Assembly: GCF_017084525.1 (NCBI RefSeq)
Contig: NZ_CP070950.1
Location: 3,472,001-3,536,000, forward strand
Direction of reading: 5' to 3'
From: Conexibacter sp. SYSU D00693
GTDB taxonomy: Bacteria > Actinomycetota > Thermoleophilia > Solirubrobacterales > Solirubrobacteraceae
Length of the DNA: 64,000 nt
Part shown: positions 13,731 to 63,876 of the stretch, one piece after another
Layout: each line of letters opens with the position of its first letter
Position numbering within the stretch: position 1 is the stretch's first letter
The notes under the pieces: model-generated
The model's database searches: none
What the model was told of the DNA's origin: nothing
What the model saw: only the letters and a program-made list of their open reading frames with translations
Translations under genes and position numbers: made by a program

Positions 13731-15230
13731 GTGGCCGGCGCCGACTCCGACGCACCGCGGTCTGCCGGTCCGCCGGCGGGCGGCGCCGACGCCACGGTCG
13801 AGCTGCTGGACACGCCCGAGGCGGGCCATGCGGTCGTCCGTGGCGGTGCCCTGCGGACGGCGAGCTTCGCGGCGGGCCTCGCCATCGCGGCGCTGTCGGC
13901 GCCCCTCATCGTCCGCCACCTCGGCAAGGAGGACTACGGCCGGCTGCTGACCGTCACGACCCTCATCTCGCTCGTGGCGATCATCACCGACCAGACGCTC
14001 ACGAACATCGCGACCCGCGAGTACACGAGCGCCCGCCCGGAGGACCGCCGGCCGCTGCTGCGCGCCGTCCTCGGGCTGCGGATGCTGCTGACGGTCGCGG
14101 GTGTCGTGGTGGTGGGGGCCTTCGCGGTGCTCGCCGGCTACGAGTCCGAGATGCTCATCGGCGTCGCGGTGGCGGGCGCCGGGCTGCTCGTCGCCGACTA
14201 CGTCGCGGGCTTCGCGGTGCCGCTCGCCGTGCGCCTGCAGCTGGGCTGGCTCGCGGTCTCGGACCTCGTCCGCAACGGGGTGAACGTCGCCCTCGTGGTG
14301 GTGCTCGTCCTGGCGGGCGCCGGGCTCGTCCCGTTCTACGCGCTGTCGGGCGCGGCGGCGCTGGGGGCGCTCGCGGTGATGGCGCCGGTCGTGCGGCGCG
14401 ACGCGCCGTGGATGCCGGCCCGTGACCGCGCGCGCTGGCGGGCTCTGACGCGCGACGCGCTGCCCGTCGCCGCCGCGACGGCGTTCGGATCGCTGTACTT
14501 CCGCGTGGTCCTGCTGCTCATGTCGGTCACGGCGACGGCGGCGGAGACCGGCGACTTCTCGGTCTCGTTCCGGCTGTGCGAGATCGCGCTGGCGGTGCCG
14601 GCGATCATCACGGCGTCGGCGTTCCCGGTGCTCGCGCGGGCCGCGGACCGCGACAGCGCCCGGCTGCGCAACGCGCTGGAGCGCATGGCGGAGGTCGGGC
14701 TGGTGCTGGGCGGCGCCATCGTGGTGGTGGGGGTGCTCGGCGCGCAGGTGGCCATCGAGCTCGTGGTCGGCGACGAGCCGATCGGCGACTCGGCCCAGGC
14801 GTTGCGCTGGCAGCTGCTCGCGCTGCCCGCGAACTTCCTCGTGGCGGCGTGGTCCTACGGGCTGCTGAGCCTGCGCGACCACCGGGCGCTGCTGCGGGCC
14901 AACGCGTCGGCGTTCGTGGTGGCGGTCGCGGCGGCGCTGCCGCTCATCCAGGCGTTCGGCGCCTCGGGCGGCGCCGTGGCGATCGTCGTGGCCGAGGTGG
15001 CCCTGGCCGGGCTGCTCGCGCTGGCGCTGCGGCGGCGGGGCTTCCACCTGCACCTGCGGCCCCGGACGGCCGGCGTCCTGCCGGCGGCGGCGATCGCGCT
15101 CGGCGTCGGGCTCGGGGTCCCGCTGCCCGAGCCGGTGGGGGCGGTCGTCGGTGGGGCGCTCTACGGCGTGCTCGTCCTGTGGGGGCGCGTCGTCCCCGCC
15201 GAGGCGCTCGATGCGCTGCGCCGGCGCTGA
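13731..15230 (+). CDS. oligosaccharide flippase (Wzx/MATE-like polysaccharide transporter)
   Basis: This 499-aa protein has about twelve to fourteen hydrophobic segments beginning near residue 43 and the GKEDYGRLLTV region after the first helix, typical of the polysaccharide-biosynthesis (Wzx-type) exporters. It would move undecaprenyl-linked repeat units across the cytoplasmic membrane. The cytosolic N-terminus of about 40 residues is acidic and Ala/Gly-rich. GTG 13731 is chosen because a -10 box lies 8 nt upstream. With the Wzm/Wzt ABC exporter at 44,707-46,829, the locus encodes two export routes. Confidence 0.82.
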   Translation: MAGADSDAPRSAGPPAGGADATVELLDTPEAGHAVVRGGALRTASFAAGLAIAALSAPLIVRHLGKEDYGRLLTVTTLISLVAIITDQTLTNIATREYTSARPEDRRPLLRAVLGLRMLLTVAGVVVVGAFAVLAGYESEMLIGVAVAGAGLLVADYVAGFAVPLAVRLQLGWLAVSDLVRNGVNVALVVVLVLAGAGLVPFYALSGAAALGALAVMAPVVRRDAPWMPARDRARWRALTRDALPVAAATAFGSLYFRVVLLLMSVTATAAETGDFSVSFRLCEIALAVPAIITASAFPVLARAADRDSARLRNALERMAEVGLVLGGAIVVVGVLGAQVAIELVVGDEPIGDSAQALRWQLLALPANFLVAAWSYGLLSLRDHRALLRANASAFVVAVAAALPLIQAFGASGGAVAIVVAEVALAGLLALALRRRGFHLHLRPRTAGVLPAAAIALGVGLGVPLPEPVGAVVGGALYGVLVLWGRVVPAEALDALRRR

Positions 15231-15232
15231 CG

Positions 15233-15238
15233 TAGCGT
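15233..15238 (+). promoter_or_regulatory. -10 box of the GT4 gene at 15246
   Basis: TAGCGT ends 7 nt before the GTG at 15246, immediately after the flippase stop. Confidence 0.5.
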
Positions 15239-15245
15239 TGTCGCG

Positions 15246-16379
15246 GTGACGACGACGGTCCTCCTCGCCCGCGGCCACCAGGCGACGGCGTGGGAGCTGC
15301 GCCCGTGGGAGGCGCTGCCCGCGCGGTTCTCCGTGCGGCTCGCGCGGTCGCGGGCCAACGGGTGGGACGTGTCGTCTCTCGGGCTGGAGTCCGTCGAGGT
15401 GCGCACGGTGCTCGACGCGGTGCCGGCGCCGCTCGGCAGGCCCCTGCGCGGGCTGCTCGGCGATCGCTACCGCGGGCTCAGCGCGCTGCTCGAGGGCGTC
15501 GACGTCGTCCACGCCGAGGAGCTGGGCTACTGGTTCGCCGCGGACGTCGCGCGGGCCCGTCTGCGGGGCGCTGACGTGCGGGTCGTCCAGACCGCCTGGG
15601 AGACGCTGCCGCTGCTCGACGCCTACCGGACGGCGCCCGCTCGGCGCCGCCGGCGCGAGGTGCTCGAGGGCACCGACCTCTTCCTCGCCGCGACGCAGCG
15701 CGCCGCGGACGCGCTGCTGCTCGAGGGCGTCCCGGCGGAGAAGGTGTCGGTGAGCGCGCCGGGGATCGACGTCGGGCGGTTCGCCGCGGCGGCGGTGCCG
15801 GCCGGCGAGCGGGAGGACCTGATCGTCTCGCCGGGGCGGCTCGTGTGGGAGAAGGGCCACCAGGACGTCCTGCGCGCGCTGGCCCTCCTGCGCCGTCGCG
15901 GTGCCTCGGTGCCGCACCTGCGGATCGTCGGGTCGGGGCCCGAGGAGGAGCGCCTGCGCCGCCACGCCGACGAGCTCGGCATCGGCGACCGCGTGCGGAT
16001 CGGGGCGGTCCCCTACGACGAGATGCCGTCCGTCCTCGGTCGCGCCCGCGCCATGTGCCTCATGTCCCTGCCCTCCGCCGGCGGCGGCCTGCACCCCCTC
16101 GACGTCCCGCACGTCTTCTGGGAGGAGCAGTTCGGGATGGTCTTCGCCGAGGCGCTCGCCGCCGGCACGCCGATCGTCACGACCGCGTCGGGCGCGATCC
16201 CGGAGGTCGTCGACGGGGTCGCCTCCGTGGTGGCTCCGGGCGACTGGCCCGCGCTGGCCGACCTCCTCGCGGCGGGTGTCCCGGTGGCGGACGCCGACCT
16301 CGCGGCAGAGCGGCTCGGCGGGTGGTCGCTCGAGGCGGCCGCGGACCGCCTCGCGGCGGCCTACGACCGCGTGCGGTGA
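15246..16379 (+). CDS. family 4 glycosyltransferase
   Basis: This 377-aa GT-B protein has a donor-binding half with SPGRLVWEKGHQDVLRAL, RIVGSGPEEERLR and the motif FGMVFAEALAAGTPIVTT, with the E-x-x-x-x-x-x-E spacing shifted slightly. The N-terminal half is unusual in starting with a short TTTVLLARGHQATAWELRPW strand rather than the common GG-loop. It probably adds a sugar to the lipid-linked glycan at the membrane. It has its own predicted leaderless promoter. A GGGTGCCTGGCACCC palindrome lies 7 nt after the stop. Confidence 0.83.
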   Translation: MTTTVLLARGHQATAWELRPWEALPARFSVRLARSRANGWDVSSLGLESVEVRTVLDAVPAPLGRPLRGLLGDRYRGLSALLEGVDVVHAEELGYWFAADVARARLRGADVRVVQTAWETLPLLDAYRTAPARRRRREVLEGTDLFLAATQRAADALLLEGVPAEKVSVSAPGIDVGRFAAAAVPAGEREDLIVSPGRLVWEKGHQDVLRALALLRRRGASVPHLRIVGSGPEEERLRRHADELGIGDRVRIGAVPYDEMPSVLGRARAMCLMSLPSAGGGLHPLDVPHVFWEEQFGMVFAEALAAGTPIVTTASGAIPEVVDGVASVVAPGDWPALADLLAAGVPVADADLAAERLGGWSLEAAADRLAAAYDRVR

Positions 16380-16385
16380 GGCGGC

Positions 16386-16400
16386 GGGTGCCTGGCACCC
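16386..16400 (+). terminator. GTGCC-W-GGCAC palindrome, copy A
   Basis: GGGTGCCTGGCACCC begins 7 nt after the GT4 stop. It is the same core as the copies at 17227, 17270 and 63153, all at gene 3' ends. Terminator role is inferred. Confidence 0.5.
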
Positions 16401-16427
16401 CGTCACTGGATGGTCAGGCGGCACGGA

Positions 16428-16433
16428 TAAGGT
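16428..16433 (+). promoter_or_regulatory. -10 box of the secreted propeller-like gene
   Basis: TAAGGT ends 6 nt before the GTG at 16440. Confidence 0.5.
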
Positions 16434-16439
16434 CGGTCG

Positions 16440-17228
16440 GTGCTCGCCGTCGCTGCTCTCTCGATCGCCACCGCCGTCGCCGCGCAGGCGGCCGACGCGG
16501 GCCCCTGGTACGTCGCGTGCGGACCGCGACCGGGCGCGACGGACCTGCACGCGCTGCACGCCGACGGACGGCTCGAGCGGCTGACGAACGGCGCGCAGCT
16601 CAACGGGATCGCGGCGCGAGTCGGGCAGGCGGTCGTGGCGACGCTGGGGACCAACGGGCAGACGCGCATCGTGCGGGTCGTGCCGCAGCCGTCGCGCCTG
16701 CTGGCCAGCCACGCGGCGGGCAGCCCGCGGCTCTCGATGGACGGCCGGCGCGTGGCGTGGACGGCCCTGAGCGAGCGACGAGGACGGTTCGTGCAGGACG
16801 TCTGGGTCAAGCGCCTGGACCGTCCGGAGGCGGCCCGGCGCGTGGCACGGATCGCCGGCGTCCTGGTGGCGACGGACTTCGATGCGCGCGGGGTCTTGCA
16901 CGTGGCCGTGCGGCGGCCGGGCGCCACCGCGGTGCTCGCCGTCTCGCCGAAGGGCCCGACGGTGCGCCTGCCGCGCATCGACGCCCTGCGCTTCGGGCCT
17001 GCGGGGCTGGTCGCGACGGCGCAGGGGCGGCAGATCACCGTCCGCGACGGGCTGCGGGGCGCGGTCGTGCGGACGCGGCGCGGGGCGTTCGTCCAGGGCT
17101 GGGACGCCGCGGGGACGCTGCTGGTGAGCGACACGGCCGGCCGGCTGGAGGCCTGGGACCCGCGGGCCCGCACCTCCCGCGACCTCGGCCGCCTCGCCTG
17201 CGGGCAGCCCTACGGCGGCGAGCGGTGA
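16440..17228 (+). CDS. secreted protein, probably beta-propeller (TolB/WD40-like)
   Basis: This 262-aa protein has a short signal peptide (hydrophobic residues 2-15, AQA-ADAG region). A run of repeating beta-strand blocks follows with patterns such as SPRLSMDGRRVAWT, FDARGVLHVAV and GWDAAGTLLVSD, as seen in TolB/WD40-like propellers. Two cysteines (VACGPRPG and LACGQPYG) near the two ends could close the ring with a disulfide. No catalytic motif is visible; it may bind envelope components. The gene ends in the first of two tandem palindromes facing the convergent GT4 gene. Confidence 0.6.
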   Translation: MLAVAALSIATAVAAQAADAGPWYVACGPRPGATDLHALHADGRLERLTNGAQLNGIAARVGQAVVATLGTNGQTRIVRVVPQPSRLLASHAAGSPRLSMDGRRVAWTALSERRGRFVQDVWVKRLDRPEAARRVARIAGVLVATDFDARGVLHVAVRRPGATAVLAVSPKGPTVRLPRIDALRFGPAGLVATAQGRQITVRDGLRGAVVRTRRGAFVQGWDAAGTLLVSDTAGRLEAWDPRARTSRDLGRLACGQPYGGER

Positions 17229-17247
17229 AAGGTGCCAGGCACCTTTC
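17227..17247 (+). terminator. GTGCC-W-GGCAC palindrome, copy B
   Basis: A perfect 21-nt palindrome (10-bp arms, central A) overlaps the TGA of the propeller-like gene and ends in TTTC, like an intrinsic terminator. Confidence 0.6.
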
Positions 17248-17269
17248 GTCCCTGGGCGGGGGCGCGCGG

Positions 17270-17292
17270 TGAAAAGTGCCTGGCACTTTTCA
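17270..17292 (-). terminator. GTGCC-W-GGCAC palindrome, copy C
   Basis: A perfect 23-nt palindrome (11-bp arms, central T) overlaps the TGA of the minus-strand GT4 gene. With copy B it forms a back-to-back pair between convergent genes. Confidence 0.6.
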
Positions 17293-18396
17293 TCCCCGGG
17301 CGAGGGCGCGCAGGAGCGTGAGGTGCTCCCGCGCCGTGCGCTCCCAGGAGTAGGCCGCCGCGCGCTGGGGGCCGAGGTCGCGCAGGCGGTCGGCGAGGCG
17401 GGGCTCGGTGAGCAGGCGGCGCAGCGCCTCGGTGATCGCGAGGACGTGGTGGGGCTCGACGAGCAGGGCGGCGTCCTGGGCGACCTCGGGCAGGGACGAG
17501 ATCGAGGACGTGAGGACCGGGGCCCCGGCGGCCATCGCCTCGAGGACCGGGAGGCCGAAGCCCTCGTAGAGCGACGGGTAGGCGAACGCGGCGCAGCCGG
17601 CGTAGAGGGCGCGCAGCTCGTCGTCGGAGACGAAGCCCAGGAGCTTGACCTCGTCGGGGTTGGCGCGGGCGGCGTCGAGGATCGGGCCGGCGTCCCAGCC
17701 GGTGGGGCCGACGAGCGCCAGCGCCTTCCCGGCACGGACGTCGTCGGGCAGCGCGGCCCAGGCGGCGATGAGGCGCTCGAGGTTCTTGCGCGGCTCGAGC
17801 GTCCCGGCGGCCAGGACGAACTGGCGCTCGCGCAGGCCGTGGCGCGCCGCGACCTCCCCCGGCTCGAGGCCGACGGCGCCGCGCGGCGGGTCTGCCGCGA
17901 GGGGGATCACCGACGCCTTGGACGCCACGGCGGGGAACAGCCGCACGAGGTCGTCGAGCGTCGCCTGGGAGTTGCACGGCAGCGCGGCGGCGCGGCGCAG
18001 GGCGGGGCGGATCGTCGCCCGCTCGATGCGGCCGGCGCGGGGCTGGGCCCACCCCGGCTCGACGAGCGAGATGAGGTCGTGGACGTAGATCGCCGTCGGC
18101 TTCCACGTGCCCCAGGCGGTGAGGTAGGAGTTGGTCGACAGGACGACGTCGGCCGCGCGGCTCGCCCGGACCGCCGCGACCGCGTGCCACGCCGGATCCG
18201 GCAGGCCGATGAGCGACCACGAGAACCGCGCGTCCAGGGCCGGGTCCTCCCAGCGCTCGCGCGCGAGCAGGACGAACCGCGCGTCGGCCGCCTCGGGCAG
18301 GGCGGCGAGGGCGCGCAGCAGCTCGCGGACGTAGCGCCCGCGCCCGGCGGGGACCTCCGCGGCCGCCCGCGCGTCGATCGCCGCGACGAGGCTCAT
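17290..18396 (-). CDS. family 4 glycosyltransferase (mannosyltransferase-like)
   Basis: This 368-aa GT-B enzyme has GRGRYVRELLRAL near the N-terminus, YVHDLISL, and in the donor half LAAGTLEPRKNLERLI, LLGFVSDDELRALYAG and EGFGLPVLEAMAAG, with SISSLPEVAQDAALL after it. This is the WbaZ/MtfB-type pattern common for mannosyl- and rhamnosyltransferases. The ATG at 18396 overlaps the stop of the upstream GT4 gene (ATGA), so both are made from one message. Its 3' end lies in the second 44-bp repeat unit. Confidence 0.87.
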   Translation of the reverse strand: MSLVAAIDARAAAEVPAGRGRYVRELLRALAALPEAADARFVLLARERWEDPALDARFSWSLIGLPDPAWHAVAAVRASRAADVVLSTNSYLTAWGTWKPTAIYVHDLISLVEPGWAQPRAGRIERATIRPALRRAAALPCNSQATLDDLVRLFPAVASKASVIPLAADPPRGAVGLEPGEVAARHGLRERQFVLAAGTLEPRKNLERLIAAWAALPDDVRAGKALALVGPTGWDAGPILDAARANPDEVKLLGFVSDDELRALYAGCAAFAYPSLYEGFGLPVLEAMAAGAPVLTSSISSLPEVAQDAALLVEPHHVLAITEALRRLLTEPRLADRLRDLGPQRAAAYSWERTAREHLTLLRALARG

Positions 18397-19541
18397 GCCC
18401 CGGCGGCGTAGCCCGCGAGGACCGTCCTGAGCGACGTCTGCAGCGACAGCTCCTCGGCGTGCGCGGCGAACCAGTCGGCGGTCGACTCGCGCAGCGCCTC
18501 GCCGCCCTCGTGGCACCTGACGATCGCGTCCGCGAGGTCGGACGGCGAGGCCGAGGGCGCGACGAAGCCGTTCACGCCGTCCTCCACGTGCTCGACTGCC
18601 GCGTTGTCCGGCGCCGCGACCACGACGCTCGGCACTCCCGCCGCGGCCGCCTCCACGACGACCATCCCGTAGCCCTCGCGCGTCGAGGGCAGCAGCATGC
18701 ACGTGGCGTGGCGCAGGGCGTGCTCGACCTCCGAGCCGTCGACGAACCCCGGTGCGCGCACGAGCTCCGTCGCCCCCGCACGCGCGATCGCCGCGTCGAC
18801 CTCCGCCCGCTGGGGCCCGTCCCCGAAGATGACGCCGCGCAGCCCGGCGACCCGCCGCGCGGCCTCGACCACCGCCGGCACGACGGCCGGCGCCTGCTTC
18901 TCGGGGATGAGCCGCCCCGCGAAGACGACCTCCCCGGACGCCGGTGCGGGAGACGGACGCTCGAGCAAGCCCGCCCACTCGCCGCGCAGGACCGTCGGCG
19001 TCCCGCGCAGCCCCTCCTCGCGCAGCCGTCGAGCGTGCAGCGCGCTGAAGCAGTAGGCCTGCTGGGGCACCCGCGCGCACGCCGCCTGGATCGCCCGCGC
19101 CACGCGGCCCTTCACGCCGCCGAGGTACTCCGCCCAGTACGACGGCGACCACACCTCGTGCCACTCCGCGACGATCCGGTAGCGGCCGCGGCGGCGTGCC
19201 ACGCCGGCGGCCAGCAGCGAGAAGTACGGGAACGACGCGGTGTGGACGACGTCGTAGTCGCGGCCGTGGCGCCACAGGTGCTTGAGCACGCCCCAGCCGA
19301 AGCGCAGCGGCTCGCCGATCGTCCGGCTGCCGTCGGGCCCGTAGAGCGGCTCGTCCTTCGACACCGCCACCACCCGCACGCCCGGGACCTCCGGGGGCTC
19401 GTCCTGCGCCCACTGCACCCGCGTGAGGTAGGTCACGTCGTGCCCGTCGGCCGCCAGCGCCTCGCCGAGGTTGCGCATCCAGCGCTCGAGGCCCCCCACG
19501 GTCCAGGGGAACAGGCAGTCGTAGACCAGGCAGATCCGCAT
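18393..19541 (-). CDS. family 4 glycosyltransferase
   Basis: This 382-aa GT-B protein starts MRICLVYDCLFPWTVGGLER, the typical acceptor-site loop with GG. The donor half has VVFAGRLIPEKQAPAVVPAV, IFGDGPQRAEVDAAI and STREGYGMVVVEAAAAGVPSV, with the two glutamates of the E-x7-E motif. It probably elongates the surface glycan with a hexose from a nucleotide sugar. It is the first gene of a two-gene minus-strand operon, divergent from rmlC. No convincing ribosome site precedes the ATG. Confidence 0.87.
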   Translation of the reverse strand: MRICLVYDCLFPWTVGGLERWMRNLGEALAADGHDVTYLTRVQWAQDEPPEVPGVRVVAVSKDEPLYGPDGSRTIGEPLRFGWGVLKHLWRHGRDYDVVHTASFPYFSLLAAGVARRRGRYRIVAEWHEVWSPSYWAEYLGGVKGRVARAIQAACARVPQQAYCFSALHARRLREEGLRGTPTVLRGEWAGLLERPSPAPASGEVVFAGRLIPEKQAPAVVPAVVEAARRVAGLRGVIFGDGPQRAEVDAAIARAGATELVRAPGFVDGSEVEHALRHATCMLLPSTREGYGMVVVEAAAAGVPSVVVAAPDNAAVEHVEDGVNGFVAPSASPSDLADAIVRCHEGGEALRESTADWFAAHAEELSLQTSLRTVLAGYAAGA

Positions 19542-34175: not shown

Positions 34176-35604
34176 GCGCCGCAGACGCTGCGGCCTTCGG
34201 CGGGACCTGGAAGTTGTCCGTCGTCGCCTGGACGACCGACCAGACGATGAGCATGAAGACCGCCAGGCCGGCCACGATCGCGACGGGTGCGCGCGCCCGC
34301 TGCACAGGCGTGGCGCCCGGCGCGGCGGCCCAGGGCTTGGGCCAGCCCGGGGCGAAGACCAGCAGCCAGGCCAGCGTGTAGACCGGCAGCAGGAACCGCG
34401 TCTCCATGGCGGAGGGCAGCGACGTCACGCACGCGGCAAGGAGGCCCAGAGCGTAGCGCCAACGCGCTGGCCCGAGGCTGCGCCGCGCCGCGGGCCACAG
34501 GAGCCGCACAAGCGCGGCGAACAGCAGGGAGAAGCCGACGAGGCGCCACGGCCGCCGGTCGCCGTCGTCGAGCTTGTTGATGTACGGGGTGCTGTAGCGC
34601 TGGTCCATCCCGTTGACGAACCGGCGCCACACGACGCCCGCGACCGTCAGCGGGTGCTCGAGGGCGATCCGTACGTACTCGCCGGAGCCCTTGACCTGCT
34701 GGTCTGGACCGAGCTCCTCCTTGCGCAGGTCCTCGGTGTTCGGGTCGGCGTAGATCATCTGCGGGATCGTCCGGTCGCGCCCGACGTAGGTCTCGTAGCG
34801 CTGGACTTGCAGGCCGACGGTGAGCTGGAAGGACCCGAGGTCCGCGGTCGTGCCGGGCACGGGGTTGTAGGAGCCGAAGTGCCGGTGCGTGGCCAGCGAC
34901 TGGGGCAGCGACACGAGCCCCATCGCGACGAGCAGGACGACGAAGGCCGCGCCGTCACGGCGGGTGGGCCGCTGGCCGGCGCGGTGCAGCTTCCCCCACT
35001 CCCACAGGACGATCAGCAGGATCGCCGGTACCAGGACCGAGTACGCGGGCCGCAGGTTGACCGCGAACGCCGCCGCGGCGCCGGCCACCGCAAGCCAGGC
35101 CGGCGAGCGCCAGTGCGCGGCGGCGATGAGCGCCAGCAGCCCGGCGGCGAGCGCGGGGAAGTCGGTCAGCGGCCACAGCAGGTAGCCGTGCCAGAACGCC
35201 AGCAGCGTGGCGGCGAAGGCCAGGCGATGCAGCACGCCGAAGCGCACCGACGGCCACACCGTCTGGGCGAATCGCGGAGCCAGTACGGCGCCGATGAGTG
35301 CGATGACCAGCGCCATCATGATCCGCACGGACTGGTAGTCCAGGAGGCCGAGGTCGCGCCCGACGTCGCGCACCTCGCGCAGCACGAGGGCGAACGAGTA
35401 CCCGCGCAGCGGGTGCTCGAAGTTCAGCAGCGAGAACGGCTCGCGGCCGCCCTTGTCGAAGACGTCGGCCAGGCCCCAGTAGACGCCGGCGTCGTAGTGG
35501 AACGCCTGGTCTGCCGAGAGCAGCGCGATGAGCAGGCAAGCCGTCAGGACGACGACGAGCGCGGCGGGCTCTGCCCACCGTCCGGGCCGTAGGAGACCCG
35601 TCAA
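34171..35604 (-). CDS. GT-C-like multi-spanning membrane protein
   Basis: This 477-aa protein has about ten hydrophobic segments. The first outer loop reads HYDAGVYWGLADVFDKGG (about residues 34-51), with the acidic residue expected in GT-C glycosyltransferases, and a second outer region around YADPNTEDLRKEELG. The start is TTG at 35604, overlapping the TGA of the aminotransferase gene (TTGA); no ATG or GTG fits better. It is the last gene of a four-gene operon for an amino-sugar branch and may transfer that sugar outside the membrane. Its stop was preserved by the IS duplication. Confidence 0.7.
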   Translation of the reverse strand: MTGLLRPGRWAEPAALVVVLTACLLIALLSADQAFHYDAGVYWGLADVFDKGGREPFSLLNFEHPLRGYSFALVLREVRDVGRDLGLLDYQSVRIMMALVIALIGAVLAPRFAQTVWPSVRFGVLHRLAFAATLLAFWHGYLLWPLTDFPALAAGLLALIAAAHWRSPAWLAVAGAAAAFAVNLRPAYSVLVPAILLIVLWEWGKLHRAGQRPTRRDGAAFVVLLVAMGLVSLPQSLATHRHFGSYNPVPGTTADLGSFQLTVGLQVQRYETYVGRDRTIPQMIYADPNTEDLRKEELGPDQQVKGSGEYVRIALEHPLTVAGVVWRRFVNGMDQRYSTPYINKLDDGDRRPWRLVGFSLLFAALVRLLWPAARRSLGPARWRYALGLLAACVTSLPSAMETRFLLPVYTLAWLLVFAPGWPKPWAAAPGATPVQRARAPVAIVAGLAVFMLIVWSVVQATTDNFQVPPKAAASAAP

Positions 35605-63152: not shown

Positions 63153-63167
63153 GGGTGCCAGGCACCC
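63153..63167 (-). terminator. GTGCC-W-GGCAC palindrome, copy D
   Basis: GGGTGCCAGGCACCC starts 1 nt after the stop of the minus-strand transglycosylase-like gene. Outer arms GCTGAG (63140-63145) and CTCAGC (63168-63173) extend the symmetry. Confidence 0.55.
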
Positions 63168-63168
63168 C

Positions 63169-63876
63169 TCAGCGGCCGACGAAGTTCGGCTGCTCCCAGA
63201 CGCGGCGCTTGAGGTAGTCCTTGACCTGGGCGACGTAGCTGTCGCTCTTGCCAAGGTGCCAGCGGCCGGACGCCCAGACCCCGATGGAGCCCCAGAGGTC
63301 GCCGGCGCGGTACTCCTCGGCGCGCTCGACGGTGTTGAGCCACGGGTGCTTGCCGTCGTAGTAGGAGCGGATGATCGCGCCCCAGTAGTCGGCGTTGAAC
63401 GCGCTGGCCTGCTGCATGAACGGCAGGCAGCAGTGGTAGGGGCGGCGCATCTGGAAGAGGCCGAAGGAGTCGCCGCCGTCCCCCAGCGTGCGCACGTCCC
63501 ACCAGCTCTCGACCGCGGCGACGGCGCGGACGAGGTCGTGGTCGATGCCCCACTTGATCGCGGTCCACTCGAGGATGTCGTCGGTGTTGCCGCGGAAGCG
63601 CCCGTCGACGTCGGCCTTGTAGGGCATGTCGCTGCGGCGCCGGAAGATGCGCAGCTGGGACGCGGTCGGCACCCGGCGGTTGGCCTTCGCGTTCTGCGGG
63701 CGCGGCTCCCAGCCGTGGCGCTTGACCTTCTTGGCCGCGGCCGCCGAGCTCAGGGGCTTCGTGCCGACCTTGGCCATCCACGGGTTGGCGGCGCCCGCCG
63801 CGGCGGGACCAGCGGCGAGGAGGGCGAGCGCGGCGAGGAGGGGGACGAGCAAGCGCACCGGGGCAGGCATCGGCAT
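63169..63876 (-). CDS. secreted lytic transglycosylase-like protein
   Basis: This 235-aa protein has a signal peptide (hydrophobic residues 7-28, cleavage near AGA-ANP). The mature part has a lysozyme-fold-like motif VRAVAAVESWWDVRTLG with the catalytic-type glutamate, followed by GDSFGLFQMRR and a cysteine pair CC in PYHCCLPF, as in SLT-type transglycosylases. WGSIGVWASGRWHLG occurs near the end. It would cleave peptidoglycan outside the membrane. The two ATGs at 63876 and 63870 are both plausible. Confidence 0.78.
   Translation of the reverse strand: MPMPAPVRLLVPLLAALALLAAGPAAAGAANPWMAKVGTKPLSSAAAAKKVKRHGWEPRPQNAKANRRVPTASQLRIFRRRSDMPYKADVDGRFRGNTDDILEWTAIKWGIDHDLVRAVAAVESWWDVRTLGDGGDSFGLFQMRRPYHCCLPFMQQASAFNADYWGAIIRSYYDGKHPWLNTVERAEEYRAGDLWGSIGVWASGRWHLGKSDSYVAQVKDYLKRRVWEQPNFVGR

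Follow-up and report, generated by a model that had tools for sequence, protein, structure and literature searches.

The GTGCCWGGCAC palindromes found at gene ends in Conexibacter sp. SYSU D00693 very probably belong to one REP/TIR family of short hairpins, non-autonomous repeats that a RAYT/TIRYT-type transposase (Y1, HUH, acting on single strands) has spread. Several findings back this reading: a transposase gene, RAYT1, with its flanking palindromes, two sibling RAYT/palindrome pairs, the copy number, the paired arms, the CWG loop and the abutment of the repeat on TGA stops. The family is of REP type, and termination of transcription is not its primary role.

Copy number, repeat unit and hairpin

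The window analysed here is a stretch of 64,000 nucleotides (positions 3472001-3536000 of the contig). The four W-centred GTGCC-W-GGCAC copies reported in a preliminary description of it are exact, and codon-usage gene calls confirm that all four stand at gene stops. Copies and adjoining genes are as follows.

15246..16379, + strand: gene ahead of copy 1 (codon-usage gene call)
16386..16400: copy 1, GG-GTGCC-T-GGCAC-CC; core 16388-16398, starting 8 nt past the TGA (16377-16379) of gene 15246-16379
16440..17228, + strand: gene with its TGA fused to copy 2 (codon-usage call, score 60, weaker than its neighbours)
17227..17247: copy 2, GAAAG-GTGCC-A-GGCAC-CTTTC; core 17232-17242; the left arm holds TGA 17226-17228, stop of gene 16440-17228
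17270..17292: copy 3, TGAAAA-GTGCC-T-GGCAC-TTTTCA; core 17276-17286, a perfect 23-bp palindrome; TCA 17290-17292 in the right arm is the TGA of gene 17290-18396
17290..18396, - strand: gene with its TGA fused to copy 3 (codon-usage call; relatives in L092 and L093)
63153..63167: copy 4, GG-GTGCC-A-GGCAC-CC; core 63155-63165; TCA 63169-63171, at right-arm position, is the TGA of gene 63169-63858
63169..63858, - strand: gene with its TGA fused to copy 4 (codon-usage gene call)

Three sides in the window are thus fused to a stop (17226-17228, 17290-17292 and 63169-63171). We take the product of gene 17290-18396 to be a putative glycosyltransferase, from the likeness of its sequence. In the relative L092 (G005:C310), set against window 15246-18396, the counterparts of genes 15246-16379 and 17290-18396 end near each other, and gene 16440-17228 and both palindromes between these counterparts are absent. 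At 34850-34860 the window also holds GTGCCGGGCAC, with an identical core but G-centred.

The window by itself is insufficient to reveal the repeat, because its 14 matches (any centre, one mismatch allowed) compare with a shuffle mean of 8.0. Across the genome (one contig of 4,429,419 bases, ~4.43 Mb) the picture is clear. The core occurs in 98 copies, counted as exact cores with altered-core copies excluded, against 4 for the reversed pattern, and a chance origin is rejected on that count. The copies form 73 clusters. Neighbour spacings of 130 bp or less number 25; ten are exactly 33 bp and 18 are divisible by 3. These multiples of 3 hint at in-frame insertion, but most copies are outside genes, and the 33-bp spacing may equally reflect about three helical turns.

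The repeat unit measures ~25 bp, the core plus ~7 more bases per side, and its commonest arm is GTGGAAG with its complement. This palindrome, which we call family A, reads GGTGCCAG. Its arms vary and yet remain complementary, as the four window copies had suggested. In fact, among 88 distinct 27-mers, arm positions 1, 2, 3 and 4 form 75, 79, 75 and 55 Watson-Crick pairs, against shuffle means of 54, 53, 57 and 37 and largest counts in 1,000 shuffles of 62, 63, 65 and 50. In the same set, arm position 6 (66 pairs vs 58 expected) lies inside the shuffle range, and no excess of pairing over shuffles is seen from position 8 outward.

Folding a single strand of the unit gives a hairpin in which the invariant CWG makes up the three loop bases. 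Measured against shuffles, the typed consensus and window copies 2 and 3 fold far better; copies 1 and 4 do not (z -0.6 to -1.4). Many arms in all three palindrome families of this genome (A, and B and C described below) start with TG and finish with CA, ends that could possibly form the foot of the hairpin.

Placement at gene ends and the TGA stop

Gene calls were made with our own codon-usage caller, and distances to stops were taken from stretches around the copies. The siting at gene ends first noticed in the window holds genome-wide: 61 of the 98 copies lie 20 nt or less downstream of a called stop, as do 1.3% of 60,000 window positions. The copies are dispersed and mostly outside genes. 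The gap that holds them is convergent for 42, tandem for 40 and divergent for 4; only 11 fall within a called gene, and 1 could be assigned no place. Of the 60,000 window positions, by comparison, genes cover 92% and convergent gaps 1%.

This placement has a precise register. TGA stands six to four bases ahead of the core on 62 of 196 sides (98 copies), and on 37 of these 62 it is the stop of a called gene; the 25 remaining TGA feet are not called stops, which we count against the mobile-hairpin reading. No stop occurs at that distance on the other 134 sides, and at most 5 stops are seen at any of the remaining distances as far as 30 nt. All 37 fused stops are TGA, compared with 92 TGA and 96 TAG at gene ends away from the copies (n=188); stops 9 to 24 nt from copies are TAG in 19 cases and TGA in 11. 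At six sites a single palindrome holds the TGA stops of two convergent genes. Where a single stop is fused (n=25), the far arm reads TGG in 15 and TGA in 6.

Were these stops there before the repeat? The insert may instead have brought them: a mobile palindrome for which TGA is no target would land in the last codons of a gene, its own arm giving the stop and replacing the gene's tail. The default arm, TGG, is one change away from TGA, and the far arm is still TGG at 15 of the 25 one-stop sites, as this explanation would have it; a comparable stop peak is however absent in the insert's other reading frames. The matter turns on relatives. We took the window region and eight joined gene-end pieces as queries against the genus and compared end codons in 33 gene/relative rows, 28 of which reach the gene end and 5 of which do not. 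In all 33 the core is absent within 120 nt. Where identity is 82% or higher, the end codon is shared in 11 of 11 rows, at three sides (940277 R, 1465811 L and 1136562 R); in 6 of these 11 the aligned stretch itself finishes with TGA, and the relatives' stops are TGA in 6 and TAG in 5. Thus, where genes are best conserved, the stop beside the palindrome holds a position independent of the insert. Below 82% identity the end codon is shared in 4 of 17 rows (two each at 2559169 R and 917113 L). Since it differs in the other 13, which we count against the mobile-hairpin reading, the insert may have moved some stops or provided them itself. Among these is window gene 17290-18396, for which both rows fall below 82% and are mismatched, the relatives being 6 and 10 codons longer. 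We keep the stop-supplying insert as a less likely but credible alternative. We infer that the palindrome targets a native TGA, and, between a choice of TGA by the enzyme and selection preserving such landings, we lean towards the enzyme.

The siting of the copies also brings to mind bidirectional transcription terminators, arisen or recruited at gene ends, which the preliminary description had put forward as one of its two readings. Convergent gaps hold 42 of the 98 copies and tandem gaps 40, and RNA hairpins of -11 to -18 kcal/mol are predicted at the four window copies. But a T-run is absent, and a scan of both strands over 15000-19000, with copy 4 (63155) outside it, returned 0 terminator-like sites. 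The 40 tandem copies, read in transcript sense, have 11 G-U and 22 A-C mismatches (11 and 16 when the stop base is set aside) and hence no G-U bias, a balance that fits better with recognition as DNA than with selection on the transcript. In relatives the palindrome is missing from the gene ends that were compared (0 of 33), the 98 copies cover a small fraction of genes, and the linkage to RAYT genes is left unexplained. As the raison d'être of the repeat, termination is therefore very unlikely; a secondary influence of the palindromes on RNA ends is possible.

Three transposases and their palindromes, here and elsewhere

The genome encodes three Y1_Tnp genes (PF01797) of RAYT type (REP-associated tyrosine transposases). 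RAYT1 lies outside the window (G000:C1:2918267-2919088); upstream of it stands a family A palindrome, and an imperfect copy overlaps its 3' end. RAYT2, near 3380488, sits between exact copies of GGGGACWGTCCCC (family B; 38 genome copies, control 0), and RAYT3, near 286115, between exact copies of GGGTCWGACCC (family C; 96 genome copies, control 0). The RAYT1 protein (P0001) scores 82.3 bits against the NCBIfam model REP_Tyr_transpos, above its cut-off of 80; P0002 and P0003, at 75 and 66, fall under that cut-off, and this we count against our reading. The sole PDB match of RAYT1 is TnpArep 4er8, a weak one (E 0.0025).

Families B and C hug stops much less tightly, which we likewise count against the mobile-hairpin reading. 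Family B has 4 of 38 copies inside called genes and 12 of 38 at 20 nt or less from a stop; for family C the figures are 19 and 12 of 87, based on the copies in fetched stretches out of 96 in total. In a few copies of either family, too, the opening TGA is a gene's stop. It is chiefly family A that shows the tight register with stops, because only 12 copies each of B and C come within 20 nt of a stop.

Some GGGTCWGACCC copies form tandem-like arrays of 6 to 8, many with spacings of 45, 24 or 39 bp. Other cores of this family have GGGGACWGTCCCC-type arms (TGAGAAG...) and adjoin copies of the GGGGACWGTCCCC family, which suggests a hybrid subfamily or cross-mobilisation.

C1:324240-324454 (L254:2141-2355): GGGTCWGACCC array
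C1:1643837-1644072 (L260:1538-1773): GGGTCWGACCC array
C1:1870360-1870679 (L262:1561-1880): GGGTCWGACCC array
C1:2735863 and 2735972 (L241): mixed-arm GGGTCWGACCC cores
C1:2757105, 2757144 and 2757182 (L242): mixed-arm GGGTCWGACCC cores
C1:2519327 and 2519385 (L240): mixed-arm GGGTCWGACCC cores

The C-termini of all three RAYTs give weak matches of helix-turn-helix type, with E-values from 0.002 to 0.1 and scores under the Pfam cut-offs throughout; a C-terminal extension of this type characterises the TIRYT / HuH subclass 2.1 transposases. Such matches, together with the dyad symmetry and the fixed core, could be taken to mean that the palindromes are sites for a DNA-binding protein, either operators or a chromosome-organising site. 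Yet the copies stand behind genes rather than before them (4 of 98 in divergent gaps), their arms drift but remain paired, and they come in clusters with ten spacings of exactly 33 bp. The core is moreover abundant in this genome only among the 61 searched, the next highest having 10 copies and six genomes of the same genus 0-2 each. We regard protein sites as very unlikely.

The hairpin finds parallels elsewhere, where some loci of RAYT relatives have repeated CWG-centred palindromes with different stems. In relatives of the family or genus these are GGGGACTGTCCCC, GGGGCCWGGCCCC, GGGGTCWGACCCC and AAACGTCCAGGACGTTT; in other members of the phylum, GTGCCAGGCAC (three loci), GTGACAGTCAC, GTGTCAGACAC and GTACCAGGTAC; and at RAYT loci of named genomes, GTGCCAGGCAC and GTCACAGTGAC. 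We scored 69 RAYT loci, our three and sets of 7, 29 and 30 from separate searches, for flanking palindromes, the transposase being located by tblastn in 69/69. An identical palindrome occurs on both sides within 500 bp at 12 of them; the 57 without an exact two-sided palindrome are counted against our reading. RAYT1 itself is outside the 12 because one of its flanking copies is imperfect. Twelve of the 13 two-sided palindromes are CAG/CTG-centred and one is GAC-centred; the CAG palindrome of L017, 432 and 308 bp from the gene, could be there by chance. In a looser test admitting imperfect pairs, a CAG centre was seen at 7 loci and eight other centres at 1 each.

We also built a tree from 17 of these RAYTs together with four canonical ones; the canonical set branches apart (100/97), and 11 of 18 inner branches are unresolved. 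RAYT1 pairs there with our RAYT3, whose family is GGGTC. The idea that a GTGCC palindrome marks one RAYT branch is not supported, its seven rows failing to group as a single branch, and this too we count against our reading.

The likeness to palindromes of unrelated bacteria, raised in the preliminary description, was borne out. The long form of family A, GGAARGTGCCTGGCACYTTCC, was found in 35 stretches from 17 records or strains, by a search from which the window's own genome was possibly excluded. Judging by record titles, these presumably include Bacillota, Pseudomonadota, Actinomycetota and a Desulfovibrio MAG. A RAYT search in 12 of the 17 records gave a match in 12/12, above cut-off in 7; in control genomes the same model gave a match in 6/14, above cut-off in 1. 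Within the 3.4 kb fetched, the core lies on both sides of the RAYT in 3/12 (Evansella halocellulosilytica, Desertimonas flava and Mesobacillus maritimus), one copy at the Evansella locus being more than 500 bp from the gene. Mesobacillus persicus, of the Bacillota, contributes 14 of the 35 stretches, a lower bound for its long-form stretches (L103, L105, L107, L109, L113 and others), and has three RAYT loci, of which only a partial one has the core within the fetched 3 kb. Many of its long-form copies are away from RAYTs, and we count this against our reading as well.

Related systems and a proposed mechanism

Canonical REPs share much with these repeats. GTAG REPs are also dispersed palindromes adjoining a RAYT, mostly intergenic and near 3' ends, and form BIMEs and REPINs (Nunvar 2010, PMC2817692). 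According to PMC3733652, they often supply the TAG stop of flanking ORFs; here, too, the end of the repeat coincides with the stop of a flanking ORF, TGA in this case. A canonical GTAG REP, however, is an imperfect palindrome tagged with GTAG (or GTGG) at one end, whereas family A has no GTAG tag and is symmetric, GTGG-like at both ends.

TIRtrons offer a second comparison. As described by Di Nocera 2013 (PMC3733652), they are tyrosine transposases between repeats with a common GGGGWSAS motif; some of these repeats are self-complementary and recur across the genome. The likeness extends to a RAYT-like gene between repeats that also occur singly, in pairs and in clusters. Families B (GGGGACAG) and C (GGGGTCAG) fit this motif, which can then be taken as one half of a CWG-centred palindrome; family A departs from it. 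Unlike the TIRtrons of that account, the palindromes here are perfect, keep a constant CWG centre and number up to 98 and 96 copies, and those of family A are fused to TGA stops. A 2018 survey (PMC6006769) assigns 20 of 26 TIRYTs to HuH subclass 2.1 and reports no sequences of REP type in the vicinity of genes of that subclass, whereas palindromes are present here. With IS200/IS605 elements our system shares the Y1 HUH transposase domain (PF01797) and hairpin ends, but its repeats are gene-free; the NCBIfam IS200 model gives P0001 16 and P0002 17 bits against a cut-off of 55, and P0003 is unlisted.

We found no bacterial paper printing these palindromes in the paper texts searched. The RAYT-repeat kind was already known; what sets the present RAYT/TIRYT palindromes apart is their constant CWG loop and the fusion of family A to TGA stops.

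How might such a hairpin move? RAYT1 would recognise the folded single strand through its loop and stem and would excise and insert it in that form, cutting near the hairpin foot (TG...CA). The hairpin would then be rejoined at a target containing TG or TGA. A gene's own TGA could be the favoured target or the favoured survivor and would become the foot of the hairpin; it would be favoured because an insert behind TGA leaves the protein unchanged. Close pairs and arrays may be multiples of the BIME/REPIN kind, and effects on RNA ends, if any, would be secondary. The other suggestion of the preliminary description, a small mobile palindrome settling at gene ends, gains from the RAYT1 flanks, from abundance in this genome only among the 61 and from the strong enrichment at gene ends; its mobility is presumed.

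More broadly, and tentatively, we envision a multi-phylum lineage of HUH transposases that moves hairpins with an invariant CWG triloop and a free stem. In this genome it would insert one of them beside native TGA as a safe landing site, the opal codon becoming the hairpin foot and one insert serving both convergent genes. We consider this possible, if somewhat doubtful as a whole.

The findings tie RAYTs of a poorly characterised group to high-copy palindromes with a common CWG-loop signature. They also offer a testable reason for siting at gene ends, namely that the repeat adjoins a TGA stop exactly and, in the best-conserved genes, arrived after it. With three RAYT/palindrome pairs in one genome, specificity becomes testable by exchange of partners.
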